Below, piece after piece: positions 2,474 through 51,480 of a stretch of DNA of 64,000 nt. Under the pieces are notes generated by a model, which was not told where the DNA came from, did no database searches, and was given only the letters and a program-made list of their open reading frames with translations. The position numbers and the translations under genes were made by a program. Location of the stretch: positions 1 through 64,000 of the forward strand of contig DXIO01000044.1 in assembly GCA_019112875.1 (NCBI GenBank), given 5' to 3'. How positions within the stretch are numbered: position 1 is the stretch's first letter; each line of letters begins with the position of its first letter. This stretch comes from Candidatus Aquabacterium excrementipullorum. Its GTDB lineage: Bacteria > Pseudomonadota > Gammaproteobacteria > Burkholderiales > Burkholderiaceae_C.

Positions 2474-5095
2474 ATGACCACCACGTACCGCAAGCCCCTG
2501 CCCGGCACCCAGCTCGACTACTTCGATGCCCGCGAAGCCGTTGACGCGATCAAGCCCGGCGCCTGGGCCACCCTGCCCTACACCTCGCGCGTGCACGCCG
2601 AGAACATCGTGCGCAAGGCCGATCCGGCCATCGTGACCGAGTGCCTGACGCAGCTGATCGAGCGCAAGCGCGACCGCGACTTCCCGTGGTTCCCGGCGCG
2701 CGTGGCCTGCCACGACATCCTGGGCCAGACCGCGCTGGTGGACCTGGCCGGCCTGCGTGACGCCATCGCCAAGGAAGGCGGCGACCCCGCCAAGGTGAAC
2801 CCCGTGGTGCCCGTGCAGCTGATCGTGGACCACTCGCTGGCCGTGGAGTGCGGCGGTTTCGATCCCGATGCGTTCCAGAAGAACCGCGACATCGAAGAGC
2901 GCCGCAACGAAGACCGCTTCCACTTCATCGAGTGGACCAAGAAGGCCTTCGCCAACGTGGACGTGATCCCCGCGGGCAACGGCATCATGCACCAGATCAA
3001 CCTGGAGAAGATGTCGCCCGTGATCCATGCGGACAAGGGCGTGGCCTACCCCGACACCTGCGTCGGCACCGACAGCCACACGCCGCACGTGGATGCATTG
3101 GGCGTGATCGCCATCGGCGTGGGCGGCCTGGAAGCCGAGAACGTGATGCTGGGCCGCGCCTCGTGGATGCGCTTGCCCGAGATCGTCGGCGTGAAGCTGA
3201 CCGGCCAGCGCCAGCCCGGCATCACCGCCACCGACGTGGTGCTGGCCCTGACCGAGTTCCTGCGCAAGAACAAGGTGGTCGGCTCCTACCTCGAGTTCCA
3301 TGGCGAAGGTGCCGCCAAGCTCACCATCGGTGACCGCGCCACCATCTCGAACATGGCCCCCGAGTACGGTGCCACCGCCGCCATGTTCAGCATCGACGAC
3401 CAGACGCTGGAGTACCTGACGCTGACCGGCCGCGACGCAGCCCAGGTCAAGCTGGTCGAGACCTACGCCAAGCAAGCCGGCCTGTGGTCCGACACGCTGA
3501 AGGACGCCGTCTACGAGCGCAACCTCGAGTTCGATCTGTCGAGCGTGGTGCGCAACATGGCTGGCCCTTCGAACCCGCACGCTCGCGTCGCCACCAGCGA
3601 CCTGGCCGCCAAGGGCATCGCCGGCCAGTGGGCCATGCCCGCGGCCGATGAGGGCACCATGCCCGACGGCGCCGTCATCATCGCCGCCATCACCAGCTGC
3701 ACCAACACCTCCAACCCGCGCAACGTGATCGCTGCCGCGCTGCTGGCCCGCAACGCCAACAAGTTGGGTCTCACGCGCAAGCCATGGGTGAAGTCGTCCC
3801 TGGCCCCCGGCTCGAAGGCCGTGGAGCTGTACCTCAAGGAAGCCGGCCTGCTGCCCGATCTGGAAAAGCTCGGCTTCGGCATCGTGGCCTTCGCCTGCAC
3901 CACCTGCAACGGCATGTCGGGCGCGCTCGATCCGGCCATCCAGAAGGAAATCGTCGACCGCGACCTCTACGCCACCGCCGTGCTCTCGGGCAACCGCAAC
4001 TTCGACGGCCGCATCCACCCATACGCCAAGCAGGCCTTCCTGGCCTCGCCCCCGCTGGTGGTGGCGTATGCGATCGCCGGCACCGTGCGCTTCGACATCG
4101 AGAACGACGTACTGGCGGTCGTTGACGGCAAGGAGATCCGCCTGAAGGACATCTGGCCGAGCGACGAAGAGATCGACGCCGTGGTGAAGAGCTCGGTGAA
4201 GCCCGAGCAGTACCGCGCCGTGTACGAGCCGATGTTCGCCATCAAGGCCGACGATGGCGAGAAGGTCACGCCGCAGTACGACTGGCGCCCGCAATCCACC
4301 TACATCCGCCGCCCGCCCTATTGGGACACGGAAGGCGTGGGCGCACTGGCAGCCAACCCGCGCACGCTCAAGGGCATGCGCCCGCTGGCCATCCTGCCGG
4401 ACAACATCACCACCGACCACCTGTCGCCGTCCAACGCGATCCTGATGAACTCGGCCGCCGGTGAGTACCTGCACAAGATGGGCCTGCCGGAAGAGGACTT
4501 CAACTCCTACGCCACCCACCGCGGCGACCACCTCACCGCGATGCGCGCCACCTTCGCCAACCCCACGCTCAAGAACGAGATGGTGCGTGATGCCGACGGC
4601 AAGGTGAAGCCCGGCTCGCTGGCCCGCATCGAGCCCGAAGGCAAGGTCGTGCGCATGTGGGAAGCGATGGAGGCGTATCAAGAGCGCAAGCAGCCGCTGA
4701 TCATCGTGGCCGGCGCCGACTATGGCCAGGGCTCCTCGCGTGACTGGGCCGCCAAGGGCGTGCGCCTGGCCGGCGTGGAAACCGTGGTCGCCGAAGGCTT
4801 CGAGCGCATCCACCGCACCAACCTGATCGGCATGGGCGTGCTGCCGCTGGAGTTCAAGCCGGGCACCACCCGCCTGACCCTGGGCCTGGACGGCACCGAG
4901 ACCTTCGACGTGGAAGGCGAGCGCCACCCGCGCGCCGACCTGACCCTGGTCATCCACCGTAAGAACGGCGAGACCGTCAAGGTGCCCGTGACCAGCCGCC
5001 TGGACACGGCCGAAGAGGTGTCGGTGTACGAAGCCGGCGGCGTGCTGCAGCGCTTCGCACAGGACTTCCTGGCCGAGAACAAGGCCGCCGCCTGA
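2474..5095 (+). CDS. acnD: Fe/S-dependent 2-methylcitrate dehydratase AcnD
   Basis: AcnD is the aconitase-family enzyme that dehydrates 2-methylcitrate, replacing PrpD, in organisms that also carry prpF. The 873-residue protein has the aconitase fold throughout and the three 4Fe-4S cysteines: Cys409 in TSCTNTSNP and Cys475/Cys478 in the CTTC motif. The C-terminal swivel domain carries [16 protein letters not shown]. The ATG at 2474 gives an N-terminus (MTTTYRKPLPGTQLDYFD) that fits the family; the frame extends upstream to 2348, but that stretch is not aconitase-like and contains the intergenic hairpin. The AcnD assignment rather than AcnA rests on the prpC/prpF neighbours and on the separate acnA at 34659. 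Confidence 0.94.
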   Translation: MTTTYRKPLPGTQLDYFDAREAVDAIKPGAWATLPYTSRVHAENIVRKADPAIVTECLTQLIERKRDRDFPWFPARVACHDILGQTALVDLAGLRDAIAKEGGDPAKVNPVVPVQLIVDHSLAVECGGFDPDAFQKNRDIEERRNEDRFHFIEWTKKAFANVDVIPAGNGIMHQINLEKMSPVIHADKGVAYPDTCVGTDSHTPHVDALGVIAIGVGGLEAENVMLGRASWMRLPEIVGVKLTGQRQPGITATDVVLALTEFLRKNKVVGSYLEFHGEGAAKLTIGDRATISNMAPEYGATAAMFSIDDQTLEYLTLTGRDAAQVKLVETYAKQAGLWSDTLKDAVYERNLEFDLSSVVRNMAGPSNPHARVATSDLAAKGIAGQWAMPAADEGTMPDGAVIIAAITSCTNTSNPRNVIAAALLARNANKLGLTRKPWVKSSLAPGSKAVELYLKEAGLLPDLEKLGFGIVAFACTTCNGMSGALDPAIQKEIVDRDLYATAVLSGNRNFDGRIHPYAKQAFLASPPLVVAYAIAGTVRFDIENDVLAVVDGKEIRLKDIWPSDEEIDAVVKSSVKPEQYRAVYEPMFAIKADDGEKVTPQYDWRPQSTYIRRPPYWDTEGVGALAANPRTLKGMRPLAILPDNITTDHLSPSNAILMNSAAGEYLHKMGLPEEDFNSYATHRGDHLTAMRATFANPTLKNEMVRDADGKVKPGSLARIEPEGKVVRMWEAMEAYQERKQPLIIVAGADYGQGSSRDWAAKGVRLAGVETVVAEGFERIHRTNLIGMGVLPLEFKPGTTRLTLGLDGTETFDVEGERHPRADLTLVIHRKNGETVKVPVTSRLDTAEEVSVYEAGGVLQRFAQDFLAENKAAA

Positions 5096-8362: not shown

Positions 8363-10966
8363 ATGTTGCAAGCCTATCGCCAACACGTTGCCGAGCGCGC
8401 CGCGCTGGGCATTCCCCCTCTGGCCCTGTCCGCAGCCCAAGTCGCTGAGCTGATCGAACTCATCAAGAACCCGCCCGCTGGCGAAGATGCGTTCCTGCTG
8501 GATCTGCTGACGCACCGCGTGCCCCCGGGCGTGGACGACGCCGCCAAGGTGAAGGCTTCCTTCCTGGCCGCCGTGGCCCACGGCGACATCGCCGTCGGCC
8601 TGATCAGCAAGGCCAAGGCCACTGAGCTGCTGGGCACCATGGTGGGTGGCTACAACGTCAAGCCCCTGATCGACCTGCTGTCCGATGCCGAAGTGGGCGC
8701 CGTGGCCGCCGATGCGCTCAAGAAGACCCTGCTGATGTTCGACGCCTTCCACGACGTCGCCGAGCTGGTCAAGGTGGGCAATGCCAACGCCAAGGCCGTG
8801 ATGCAATCGTGGGCCGACGCCGAGTGGTTCACCACCCGTCCGAAGGTCGCCCAGAAGATCACCGTGACCGTGTTCAAGGTGCCTGGCGAAACCAATACCG
8901 ACGACCTGTCGCCCGCCCCGGACGCCTGGAGCCGCCCCGACATCCCGATGCACTATCTGGCGATGCTCAAGAACACCCGTCCCGACGCGGCCTTCAAGCC
9001 CGAAGAAGACGGCAAGCGCGGCCCGATGCAGTTCATCGAGGACCTGAAGAAGAAGGGCAACCTGGTCGCCTACGTGGGCGACGTGGTCGGCACCGGCTCT
9101 TCGCGCAAGTCCGCCACCAACAGCGTGATCTGGGCCACCGGCGAAGACATCCCCTTCGTGCCCAACAAGCGCTTCGGCGGCGTCACCCTGGGCGGCAAGA
9201 TCGCCCCCATCTTCTTCAACACGCAGGAAGACTCCGGCTCGCTGCCCATCGAAGTGGACGTGACCAACTTCGACATGGGTGACGTGCTCGACATCTACCC
9301 GTACGAAGGCAAGATCGAGAAGAACGGCGCCGTCGCCGCCAACTTCGAGCTGAAGTCGCAAGTGCTGCTCGACGAAGTGCAGGCTGGTGGCCGCATCAAC
9401 CTGATCATTGGCCGCTCGCTGACCGGCAAGGCCCGTGAGTTCCTGGGTCTGCCCGCCTCCACCGAGTTCCGCCTGCCCCAGGCCCCGAAGGACACCGGCA
9501 AGGGCTTCACCCTGGCCCAGAAGATGGTCGGCCGCGCCGTGGGCCTGCCGGTCGTCGGCGGCAACCAGCAAGGCGTGCGTCCGGGCACCTACTGCGAGCC
9601 CAAGATGACCACCGTTGGTTCGCAAGACACCACCGGCCCGATGACCCGCGACGAGCTGAAGGACCTGGCCTGCCTGGGCTTCTCGGCTGATCTGGTCATG
9701 CAATCGTTCTGCCACACGGCCGCTTACCCCAAGCCCGTGGACGTGAAGATGCACCGCGAGCTGCCCGCCTTCATCAGCAACCGCGGCGGCGTGGCCCTGC
9801 GTCCTGGCGACGGCGTGATCCACTCGTGGCTGAACCGCCTGCTGCTGCCCGACACCGTCGGCACCGGTGGCGACTCGCACACCCGCTTCCCGATCGGCAT
9901 CTCCTTCCCGGCCGGCTCCGGCCTGGTCGCCTTCGGCGCCGCCACCGGCGTGATGCCCCTGGACATGCCCGAATCGGTGCTGGTGCGCTTCAAGGGCAAG
10001 ATGCAGCCCGGCGTCACCCTGCGTGACCTGGTGCATGCCATCCCCCTGTACGCCATCAAGGCCGGTCTGCTGACCGTGGCCAAGGCCGGCAAGAAGAACA
10101 TCTTCTCGGGCCGCGTGCTGGAAATCGAAGGCCTGCCCGATCTGAAGGTCGAGCAAGCGTTCGAGTTGTCGGATGCGTCCGCCGAGCGTTCCGCCGCCGG
10201 CTGCACGATCAAGCTCAACAAGGAGCCCATCGCCGAGTACCTGAAGTCGAACATCGTTCTGATGAAGAACATGATCGCCGACGGCTACGCCGATGCCCGC
10301 ACGCTGGAGCGCCGCATCAAGGCCCAGGAAGCCTGGCTGGCCAACCCCGAGCTGCTTGAAGCCGACAAGGACGCCGAGTACGCCGCCGTGATCGAGATCG
10401 ATCTGGCCGACATCAAGGAACCCATCGTCTGCTGCCCGAACGACCCGGACGACGCCAAGTTCCTGTCCGAAGTGGCCGGCACCAAGATCGATGAAGCCTT
10501 CATCGGTTCGTGCATGACCAACATCGGCCACTTCCGCGCCGCCGGCAAGGTGCTGGAAGGCAAGAAGGACATCCCGGTGCGCCTGTGGGTGGCCCCGCCC
10601 ACCAAGATGGACGCCGCCGAGCTGACCAAGGAAGGCTACTACAACACCTTCGGCACCGCTGGCGCCCGCACCGAAATGCCCGGCTGCTCTCTGTGCATGG
10701 GCAACCAGGCCCAGATCAAGGAAGGCTCGACCTGCATCTCCACGTCGACGCGCAACTTCCCGAACCGCCTGGGCAAGAACACCAACGTGTTCCTGGGCTC
10801 CGCCGAGCTGGCCGCCGTGGCCGCCAAGCTGGGCAAGCTGCCGACGCCGGCCGAGTACCTGGCCGAGACCGGCGTGGTCACCGCCAACGCGGACAAGATC
10901 TACCAGTACATGAGCTTCGACAAGATCGACGAGTACGTGGAGACCGCCAAGGCCGTGAACGCCTGA
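8363..10966 (+). CDS. acnB: Aconitate hydratase B / 2-methylisocitrate dehydratase
   Basis: AcnB interconverts citrate and isocitrate in the TCA cycle and can hydrate 2-methyl-cis-aconitate to 2-methylisocitrate, so it would complete the methylcitrate cycle encoded just upstream. The 867-residue protein has the AcnB domain order: an N-terminal HEAT-like domain ([16 protein letters not shown]), then the swivel domain, then the Fe-S domains. The cluster cysteines are Cys717 ([11 protein letters not shown]), Cys775 and Cys778 (CSLC). I chose the ATG at 8363 with AGGTG upstream, although an in-frame GTG lies three codons earlier. It is monocistronic, ending in two tandem hairpins. Confidence 0.97.
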
Positions 10967-49246: not shown

Positions 49247-49921
49247 ATGACCGCCTCCATCACGTGGGCCCAGCAGCCCCGCGCCGTGCTGTTCGACCTG
49301 GACGGCACGCTGGCCGACACCGCTGGCGATCTGGCCGGTGCGCTCAATACCCTTCGTGTGCAGCGCGGGCTGGAACCGCTGCCTGTCGAGCGCCTGCGCC
49401 CGCATGCCTCCGCTGGGGCACGCGGCCTGATCGGCGCCGGACTCGACATCCATCCGGGCTCTGAAGAGTACGAGCCGCTGCGCCTGGCGTTTCTGAGCGC
49501 CTACGAGGCGGGCCTGGCCAACACCACACGGCTGTTCGATGGCATGCCCGAGTTGCTGGCCGCGCTGGAATCGCGCGGGCTGCTGTGGGGCGTGATCACC
49601 AACAAGGTCCACCGTTTCACGATCCCGGTGATGGACGGACTGGGCCTGACGCAGCGCGCCGCCGTGATCATCAGTGGCGACACGACCGAGCATCCGAAGC
49701 CGCATCCGCTGCCCTTGCTGACGGCGTGCGAGCGCATCGGCATCTCGCCGCAGGCGGCGATGTACGTGGGCGATGATTTGCGGGACATCCAGGCTGCGCG
49801 CGCGGCTGGGATGCCGAGCGTGGCGGCGGCCTGGGGTTACCTGGGCGAGGCCGTGGGCATCGAGGATTGGGGCGCGGATGTGATCAGCCAGAAGCCCCTG
49901 GATCTGCTGTCACTGCTCTGA
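49247..49921 (+). CDS. gph: Phosphoglycolate phosphatase (HAD family)
   Basis: A 224-residue HAD hydrolase that probably removes 2-phosphoglycolate, formed by DNA repair and other reactions. Motif I is FDLDGTLADT with nucleophile Asp17 and Asp19; the ITNKV motif II follows, and GDDLRDIQAARAAGM is motif IV. The helical cap lies between motifs I and II. It directly follows ubiG, as in other proteobacteria, which supports the Gph name over other HAD phosphatases. Behind it begins a 1.1-kb gene-poor repeat region. Confidence 0.9.
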   Translation: MTASITWAQQPRAVLFDLDGTLADTAGDLAGALNTLRVQRGLEPLPVERLRPHASAGARGLIGAGLDIHPGSEEYEPLRLAFLSAYEAGLANTTRLFDGMPELLAALESRGLLWGVITNKVHRFTIPVMDGLGLTQRAAVIISGDTTEHPKPHPLPLLTACERIGISPQAAMYVGDDLRDIQAARAAGMPSVAAAWGYLGEAVGIEDWGADVISQKPLDLLSLL

Positions 49922-50083
49922 TCGCTCTGTTGCGTGCTTGTCTTTGTCCGCATGCGGCTGGTTGAGCGCTTTGTCGTGGCAGCGCGGCGCGGGGGCTGAG
50001 CCGACCTGCGTCCGGGCTTCATTCGGGTGGTCCTGCCTGCGGCAGGACTCCCCTGCGATGCTCACGACGAGGTGGCGCTGCCC

Positions 50084-50210
50084 AACTCGCTGCGCGCCCT
50101 TCAGGCGCTCCGCTTAAACAAGGGCAGCGAGTCAGTCATGGATGCGCGCTGGCGCGCGCCCACCTCGCCGCTGCGCTTCTCGGCACCCTCAAGGCGCCCG
50201 GCCACAGGCC
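50084..50210 (+). repeat. Left arm of a ~130-bp inverted repeat
   Basis: This arm matches the reverse complement of 50732-50860. The best core is 50159-50203 against 50738-50782 (45 bases, few mismatches); the match also takes in the AACTCGCT element at the outer end, the CAAACAA/TAAACAA element and the GTCAG element. Similarity is imperfect, so the copies are diverged. Confidence 0.7.
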
Positions 50211-50333
50211 GGCTCAGCCCTTTTCCGCTCCGCTCGTGGCGTGCGAAAGGTGACGCGTGAGGCCGTGAGGTGCACTGACGGGCCAACAGGCCCCGCGCAT
50301 GAGGTTCGGGATGCGGGGTTTGCCGTGCCACGC

Positions 50334-50630
50334 CTTGCGCGCAAGGTGTTTTGCTCGGGTTCTGGCGCGTCAAGCTCGGGCATCGGCCCATTTTTCTCGG
50401 CGTGCAAGCATGCGGAACCTTGCGCGCAAAGCTCATGACTACGCTCGCCGAGCTTCGAGCCTTGCGTGCGAACCTCTTTGGGGCATGAGATCGCTGAAAA
50501 GGCCTTGCACGCCGAGTTCGGAGCGTTGCGCGCAAAGCTCCCGATCCTTGCGCACGAACCTTTTTGCCTTGCGGCCAAAGCTCAACGCTTCGTGCGCAAG
50601 GCTTTTTGCTTTGCACGCCGAGCCAAAAGC
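50334..50630 (+). repeat. Degenerate ~21-bp tandem repeat array
   Basis: About fourteen imperfect units of 20-22 bp. The clearest start at 50419, 50461, 50504, 50525, 50547, 50568, 50588 and 50610; each opens with CTTGC or a close variant. Two unit types recur, one with GCGCAAAGCTC and one with ACGCCGAG. The period of 21 is seven codons, so several frames stay open. There are no unique spacers, so it is not a CRISPR array. Confidence 0.75.
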
Positions 50631-50731
50631 GGGGCGCACAGGCATCGGCGCTCGGCGCCAAGCGCACCACACGCTGCGCGCCGCAAGCGGGTCTCCGCAG
50701 GCCACCAGCGGGGTGACACAGGGATGTGGGG

Positions 50732-50860
50732 GCAGCCGGCGGGGCGCCTTGTTGGTGCCGAGCAGCGCAGCGGCGAGGTGGGCATGCGCGCAGCGCATGC
50801 TTCGTTCATCTGACTGGCCGCAGTTGTTTGAGCGCAGCGGCGAAGCCGCGTAGCGAGTTC
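50732..50860 (-). repeat. Right arm of a ~130-bp inverted repeat
   Basis: Inverted counterpart of 50084-50210. It encloses, with the left arm, about 520 bp that include the 21-bp array. A third, direct partial copy of the core begins about 50867, beyond this arm. Confidence 0.7.
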
Positions 50861-51009
50861 TGCGGCCCCACCTCGCCGCGAGCAGCGCAGGGAAGTCACG
50901 CCAACGGCGTGACCACCAACAAAGAAGCCCGGCCGGCTGCCCTCACATCCCGCGCCCCGCGCTGCCCCGACAAACCGCCAGAACCCCCGCACGCCAAGAC
51001 AAAGAAGGA

Positions 51010-51480
51010 TCAAGCGTTATCCGGCCCGATCACCGCATGCAGCGTCACCTGCTCGCCACCTTCCCGGTCACGAGTCCGCAGCCACCAAACAGCCCCCTTC
51101 TTGATCACCACAGGCTGCGCCGCATCCGCCACCTCCAGCAGCCTAGCCAAGGCCAGCCCCAGCGTCGGGTTATGCCCCACCACCAGCACAGCCTCCCGGC
51201 TCCGCGGAAACCGCGCCGCCGCCAGCAGATCGTCCACCCCATGCGAAGGCGACAGGGTATCCACCGTCTTGAACGCCCGCCCCAGCGCCTGCACAGTCTG
51301 CTGCGCCCGCACCGCCGGGCTAGCCAGCACACGCGTCGAATCCGTCAGGTGCTTGTTCAGCCAGGCCGCCACCCGCGCCGCCTGCCGCTCCCCCTTGGGG
51401 CTCAGTGGCCGCAACAGATCGGCATCGGGGTCATCGAGAGGATCTCCCGCATGGGCATGTCGCCAGATGATCAAGTCCAT
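51010..51480 (-). CDS. sixA: Phosphohistidine phosphatase SixA
   Basis: A 156-residue histidine-phosphatase-superfamily protein with the RHG motif written RHAHAG (Arg7, His8), the RPLSPKGERQA segment and the second catalytic His in VVGHNPTLG. This is the size and motif set of SixA, which removes phosphate from phosphohistidine, for instance in Hpt domains and phosphotransferase components. It follows ppk1 by 35 bp on the same strand, so the two are likely co-transcribed and under phosphate control. Its targets here cannot be told; the hybrid kinase at 30334 lacks an Hpt domain. Confidence 0.9.
   Translation of the reverse strand: MDLIIWRHAHAGDPLDDPDADLLRPLSPKGERQAARVAAWLNKHLTDSTRVLASPAVRAQQTVQALGRAFKTVDTLSPSHGVDDLLAAARFPRSREAVLVVGHNPTLGLALARLLEVADAAQPVVIKKGAVWWLRTRDREGGEQVTLHAVIGPDNA

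Follow-up and report, generated by a model that had tools for sequence, protein, structure and literature searches.

Dispersed elements with paired, structured arms in Candidatus Aquabacterium excrementipullorum and its relatives: probable non-autonomous mobile cassettes

REP sequences are single-hairpin palindromes of 20 to 40 nt. Integron attC sites, which act as folded single strands, stand in direct orientation around a cassette, and single-strand transposons carry both of their end hairpins on one strand. Many defence and toxin-antitoxin genes lie in chromosomal spots with no visible integrase or transposase, and to our knowledge their route of arrival is an open question. Within the literature searched, the nearest described element was the Betaproteobacterial repeat element (BRE), which the accessible text of Hot et al. 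2011 (PMC3110155) presents as a GC-rich sequence of ∼90 bp that occurs in tandem with variable copy number, is dispersed and mostly intergenic in Bordetella, Polaromonas, Delftia, and others, and may have been mobile in the past.

Here, we analyzed a 64,000-nt stretch of Candidatus Aquabacterium excrementipullorum (GCA_019112875.1, contig DXIO01000044.1, positions 1 to 64,000 of the forward strand; "the window"). It contains one copy of a dispersed family of elements with a fixed outward arm order, a covarying fold with a strand bias, presence or absence at orthologous sites, a preference for convergent gene gaps, and variable cargo. A literature search that lay largely outside the subscription literature recognized no earlier description of this element.

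The element at the gph/sixA locus and its fold

The whole element, two arms plus a centre, extends from about 49966 to 50978, the two positions placed by a boundary finder. It fills most of the 1,088-bp gap between two convergent genes: gph, encoding a phosphoglycolate-phosphatase-like HAD hydrolase (49247-49921, plus strand; NCBIfam TIGR01449, 1.1e-52, 178.6 bits, cut-off 180), which terminates 44 bp ahead of the element, and a gene for a phosphohistidine phosphatase SixA-like protein (sixA; 51010-51480, minus strand; TIGR00249, 8.6e-20, 71.1 bits, cut-off 74.5). In agreement with a first-pass annotation of the sequence, which had seen no gene or transposase inside, no gene and no translated conserved protein was called over 49921-51010 by a codon-usage caller that also missed sixA.

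Both arms are multi-branched palindromes of ∼275 nt. The left arm (49965-50240) has its folded strand on the minus strand, reading outward, and scored 264.8 bits there versus 14.3 on the plus strand with the family covariance model R1, whereas the right arm (50701-50979) has the same fold in the opposite orientation (264.2 bits plus versus 29.0 minus). An inverted-repeat search paired 50152-50245 with 50696-50789 (94 nt, 78% complementary), blastn widened the match to 49941-50245 versus 50696-51005, and R1 aligned end to end with both arms. The arms are thus inverted, as the first-pass annotation had recognized, but ∼275 bp rather than ∼130 bp long. What it had taken for a third partial core near 50867 proved to be no third copy: it is the 3' strand of helix 6, the inner stem of the right arm (50867-50879, plus strand), whose 13 nt are 100% complementary to 50770-50782. 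The outer ends of the element read GCGCTTTGTCG / CGACAAA(G/C)CGC, and over 82 outer ends conservation dropped ∼15 to 18 nt past the CGCGCT box.

Among 162 unit matches, the 83 that were at least about 225 bp long and scored more than 160 bits were aligned. Of these best-matching units, 81 measured 271 to 283 nt, and the other two 258 and 306 nt. The two latter units, both on short contigs, and locus L052 were left out of alignment A1, whose 80 rows (the window's left and right arms being rows 1 and 2) served to build R1. Covariance analysis of the copies, which had been proposed as a check, showed that these 80 arms share one fold of 83 pairs in 12 helices. Paired cells amounted to 97.3%, versus 82.5% with shuffled partners and 35 to 45% with slid partners; 63 of the 83 pairs showed compensatory changes on both sides, although kinship among sequences can inflate such covariation counts. 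The covariation score was 0.447 versus 0.168, and none of 500 shuffles reached any of the five observed measures.

Folds were predicted on both strands, so that the strand test did not depend on a single prediction. The 69 pairs common to the two predictions comprised 153 G-T and 19 A-C cells, an excess that marks the outward-reading strand as the folded one. Its alifold energy was also lower (−146 versus −103 kcal/mol), and single-sequence folding preferred it in 67 of 80 arms. This is an unusually strong covarying structure for a dispersed repeat, and one for which the folded strand could be identified. Selection on what would be a folded outward strand is supported by the strand asymmetry as well as by the independent types of hairpin. 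The suggestion of a large structured RNA drew support as to structure from covariation and the one-strand G-T bias, for a molecule that may be RNA or single-stranded DNA. The folded strand of each arm terminates 3' at the outer edge of the element, and the left and right arms use opposite DNA strands. Such an arrangement fits a transposase that acts on two ends and recognizes the transferred strand, or a pair of outward RNAs.

The centre of the window element holds an array of roughly fourteen 21-bp boxes (50334-50630), each with core CTTGCGCGCAAG plus a spacer. An array of this period and size had been noted before, and autocorrelation confirmed it with peaks at lags of 21, 42, and 64 nt, as high as which none of 200 mononucleotide shuffles came. 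The boxes are strongly diverged, and Tandem Repeats Finder at a minimum score of 30 did not list the array. It recurs in the centres of two further elements (L020 and L026), and arrays of the same kind but with different box sequences lie in those of L085, L091, and L130. The array is therefore an accessory repeat separate from the element, one that some copies have in their centre, and not a part of the core element as first supposed. Arrays of 21-bp palindromic boxes also occur without a listed arm match at L033 4148-4265 and at G000:C50:9930-10046 in the own genome, as a second dispersed repeat. With two helical turns to a box, the array would be suited to protein binding, which is a guess. 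As 21 bp equal seven codons, a coding sequence was considered as well, yet it was rejected, no gene having been called over the array. By eye, ∼45 bp following the array are conserved in three species (L085 ∼5000-5070, L091 ∼8580-8675, and L130 ∼2930-3005) and read TTTGTCTGAAAT..ACTCGGATCGTGTCCG.AAAAGACTG.

Architecture, spread, and insertion sites of the family

The fetched loci of the genus contained 119 elements, 94 of which have arms in both orientations. The arm order was (-,+) in all 94 and (+,-) in none, with identical ends facing outward; five of the 94, with inner gaps of at least 461 bp, had been joined by a rule that demands (-,+), and the order-blind count is 89 of 89. The remaining 25 elements showed a single orientation (13 plus only, 12 minus only), many being cut by contig ends or having a weak partner. 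At one exceptional locus among these 25, L109, a full plus arm (258 bits) is followed by a 137-bp plus match, a partial direct copy that is absent from the R1 listing at an E value of 1e-3. Of the 85 two-armed elements whose flanks were both called, 82 had an inner gap of −7 to 461 bp. Within some genomes, the two arms of one element were of two types, each common to several loci and occurring in either orientation (8 of 8 pairs in genome G016, 7 of 8 in G004, and 3 of 3 in G019). Over nine genomes, the rule of one arm of each type held for 33 of 53 pairs, with G003 (1 of 9) and G044 (0 of 4) against it. Two-type pairs are as expected if arm-centre-arm units spread whole.

BLAST of the own genome, a 4.75-Mb draft in 147 contigs, with the window element gave 53 matches at an E value of 1e-3. 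Among the 14 regions fetched, arm sequence was present in 13, and the remaining region (L033) contained nothing but array boxes; together with the window and G000:C34, which was found by the covariance-model search, the genome holds about 15 places with the element. Beyond it, the window query matched 16 of the 41 genomes searched, own genome included and all within the genus. The element is thus neither unique in its genome nor unalignable among relatives. Of 42 genus genomes, 26 contained a strand-specific core motif; as a control, the reversed pattern gave five matches in all, so genomes with a single core-motif match may have it by chance. R1 matched 9 genomes (eight families) in a sample of 60 from the order, taken to be Burkholderiales, and 10 (nine families) in a sample of 115 from the class, taken to be Gammaproteobacteria, own genome included in each case, and these counts may be lower bounds, stricter search filters having been used. 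Best R1 scores outside the genus were ∼31 to 102 bits, and many weaker matches covered the model core only. A family-wide core pattern pointed to other genera, its 4 matches in 399 being a lower bound, as its fixed spacing was wrong and it found none even in the own genome. A plasmid collection gave no match to the window element and a single Variovorax replicon with the L145 element, and one core pattern from another genus had no match in viral contigs. Draft contigs often stop in or just after elements (L069 to L073 in G015, L040 and L043 in G003, and L023 in G000). The repeats therefore probably break assemblies, and copy numbers would be underestimated.

In total, 104 elements had a called gene on either side, and 15 more reached the end of a contig or stretch. 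Of the 104, 69 lay in convergent, 31 in tandem, and 4 in divergent gaps, so that 35 copies are nonconvergent; the same caller found 18 of 349 other gaps of more than 50 bp to be convergent (binomial p about 1e-62). The preference persisted (55 of 84) once 20 elements at sites common to species were dropped. Since the caller, a simple codon-usage script, was trained on the window, single flank calls can be wrong. At four loci (L112, L116, L118, and L120), a native terminator-like hairpin outside the element still lay, by eye, between gene and element, which therefore does not serve as the genes' terminator there.

Orthologous sites were compared in 37 cases, 17 at sites of G000 and G043 and 20 at 11 sites among G004, G014, G016, G046, and G054, with the fetched counterparts scanned with R1. 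Clean empty sites, with both flanks aligned and no arm, made up 14 comparisons at 14 different sites. The window site itself is empty in a close relative (1,088 versus 22 bp; L163), as is that of L121 (655 versus 12 bp; L173). Seven further pairs are L109/L165, L112/L167, L114/L168, L116/L169, L117/L170, L118/L171, and L120/L172, and in the last five (L049/L176, L066/L182, L074/L185, L076/L189, and L077/L191) one flank aligns over only 33 to 117 bp, where the fetched stretch ends. Arms were present in nine counterparts: seven were occupied (L174, L177, L180, L183, L186, L188, and L192, the last with one full arm), L190 stops inside an arm at a contig end, and at L159 a single arm corresponds to two in G000. 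Three counterparts carried remnants (L158, L161, and L187), the L105 site has another gene instead in G000 (L029), and ten aligned at one flank only or not usefully (L160, L162, L164, L166, L175, L178, L179, L181, L184, and L193). The 14 empty sites, which were compared pairwise, may reflect gain or precise loss. In 23 element pairs both flanks are common to species, and many copies are therefore old and inherited. A search for target-site duplications, another of the proposed checks, detected none in excess of shuffles: over 84 elements the best z value was 3.05 in 891 trials, which equals chance, in a test limited by the age and divergence of the copies.

The dispersed copies and clean empty sites support the earlier proposal of a nonautonomous mobile element. 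That of a recombination hotspot drew some support from neighbourhoods swapped at copies: the rapZ and motA sides (names by eye) are joined via one element in G002 (L093) and belong to two elements in G005 (L057 and L058). Such exchange between two species is as expected of dispersed long repeats.

Passenger genes in the centre

A centre longer than 461 bp was found in only 3 of the 85 two-armed copies with both flanks called, so cargo is a minority state. The centre of L085 encodes a 610-aa DUF1963 protein (1e-21), that of L086 a YefM antitoxin (3e-20), a YoeB toxin (2e-9), and a DUF642/PEP-CTERM protein, and that of L123 a PIN7 protein (1e-30) of the PIN nuclease family. A 91-aa ORF without family match lies in the centre of L091, the contig of which ends within the right arm. 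L156, a locus from a different family within the order, has weak arms (35.5 and 28.3 bits) around a macrodomain protein (1e-9) that is DarG-like in PADLOC (2e-7). The largest example is L206, where 7.8 kb separate arms of 172.5 and 133 bits. They enclose genes for HsdR, HsdS, an AlbA_2/HATPase protein, and HsdM, a predicted type I restriction system, and the locus is bordered on one side by a lipase-like gene and on the other by an acyl-CoA ligase gene. Immediately outside the left arm of L206 is a ParDE toxin-antitoxin pair (903-1461). A candidate cargo of ∼2.7 kb at L210 was dropped, its second arm having only 21.9 bits and overlapping a gene-like ORF. No transposase or recombinase was recognized inside any copy examined.

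One site carries the element in three species, with the PIN gene in the centre of L123 and centres of only 99 and 27 bp in L143 and L135. This comparison is the strongest argument that cargo comes and goes within the element. Structure-defined, searchable ends bound defence- or toxin-antitoxin-type genes in some copies, and since close species offer matching sites that are empty or free of cargo, the arrival of such genes becomes testable.

Candidate explanations and relation to known systems

We consider it probable that the window element is one copy of a family of nonautonomous, enzyme-less mobile cassettes with folded arms, moved by an enzyme acting in trans. Its two long, outward-pointing arms enclose a centre that is mostly a short spacer and in some copies contains passenger genes, and the outward strand of each arm can form the conserved multi-branched hairpin. 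A recombinase or transposase supplied in trans would recognize the folded or cruciform arms and move the unit, so that arms and cargo would travel together. Presence or absence at a site would mostly reflect gain. Most insertions lie where two convergent genes end, these gaps presumably being occupied through target choice, harmless insertion there, or both. A wider reading is more tentative. The family may possibly represent an undescribed class of mobile cassettes that extends over many families of the class, with ends recognized as folded single-stranded DNA or RNA by the trans-acting enzyme, and that brings defence and toxin-antitoxin genes between convergent genes. If true, such a class would explain part of the "hotspots without an integrase."

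The covarying fold could also reflect a structured RNA, the arms being two outward-transcribed noncoding RNAs, or 3'-untranslated-region or terminator structures of convergent operons, that are kept by selection and dispersed as a side effect. This would account for the strong covariation, the G-U-type bias on one strand, the unit length of 271 to 283 nt in 81 of 83 best-matching units despite strong divergence, and the siting at gene 3' ends. However, 14 orthologous sites wholly lack the element, no Rfam match to an arm was obtained at E values up to 1 in the window or up to 0.5 at five other loci, and no sigma-70-like promoter and no terminator beyond the level of shuffles was detected, the last being a weak test; overall, we regard a structured RNA as unlikely. 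(Locus L147 contains two RNase P class A matches, at 3839-4154 and 2818-3030, ∼0.8 kb apart on one strand; with 193 and 72 bits at a gathering score of 100, they correspond to a full gene plus a second copy that is partial or degenerate.) An ordinary MITE, or a mobile insertion cassette of a DDE transposon with its helper elsewhere in the genome, would have terminal inverted repeats, no transposase, passenger genes between its ends, and empty sites, all of which are seen here. Simple transposase-binding ends are not expected to covary as a multi-branched fold over a whole arm, though, and with no target-site duplication in the 84 elements and no full-length parent element noticed among the fetched loci, this explanation appears improbable.

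Two further mechanisms name a definite enzyme. If the arms were attC-type folded sites recombined by a chromosomal integron integrase, the cargo would be gene cassettes; its types do resemble those of integrons, and an integrase (TIGR02249) scored above the cut-off in 32 of 42 genus genomes, own genome included. Occurrence speaks against this reading, which we judge very improbable: G003 and G012 bear the element with no integrase above the cut-off, G013, G024, G018, and G021 have an integrase with no element match in the window-query and core-motif searches, and the integrase contig of the own genome (L202) contains no arm. Moreover, arms are inverted in 94 of 94 two-orientation elements, with a partial direct copy in L109 only, and a constant GTTRRRY box was not seen by eye in the arm alignment. 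The integrase on that contig (G000:C84:226-1170; TIGR02249, 460 bits) is full length and situated near the end of an 11-kb sequence. Mobilization as REP- or BIME-like elements by a RAYT, a Y1 HUH transposase, invokes the kind of repeat nearest in behaviour, palindromic, extragenic, paired in inversion at 3' ends, and present in many copies. It is nevertheless very improbable, as Y1_Tnp (PF01797) had no match at an E value of 1e-3 in the element-bearing genomes G000, G043, G012, G051, and G017, some of the 22 of 42 genus genomes with Y1_Tnp (G013, G018, G006, and G007) had no element match in the window-query and core-motif searches, and the unit, ∼275 nt long, comprises 12 helices rather than a short single hairpin.

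The mobile-cassette family that we favor thus shares features with several known systems. Its folded strands lie on opposite DNA strands, unlike those of single-strand transposons. With integrons it has in common folded arms that resemble recombination sites and accessory genes such as toxin-antitoxin pairs, but its arms form inverted pairs around dispersed single cassettes, whose occurrence does not follow the integrase. Compared with REP sequences, the arms are ∼10 times longer and multi-branched, some copies contain cargo, and five element-bearing genomes have no Y1 match; the likeness to REP, BIME, and REPIN elements, as outlined in the accessible text of PMC3116915, consists of extragenic palindromes in inverted pairs, in many copies and at 3'-end sites, usually with no gene inside. 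MITEs and mobile insertion cassettes, as portrayed in the accessible part of a review (PMC10969869), are likewise nonautonomous, with inverted ends and passenger genes between them, whereas the element has ∼275-nt compensatory folds as its ends, no detectable target-site duplication, and a location mostly in convergent gaps. BRE is also a dispersed, GC-rich, mostly intergenic repeat, yet one of ∼90-bp tandem copies and not of inverted pairs, a distinction drawn from its description in the accessible text of PMC3110155. Since, for each of REP, MITE, and attC, some defining features were tested for and not found, we place the element among nonautonomous mobile elements but outside these three groups.
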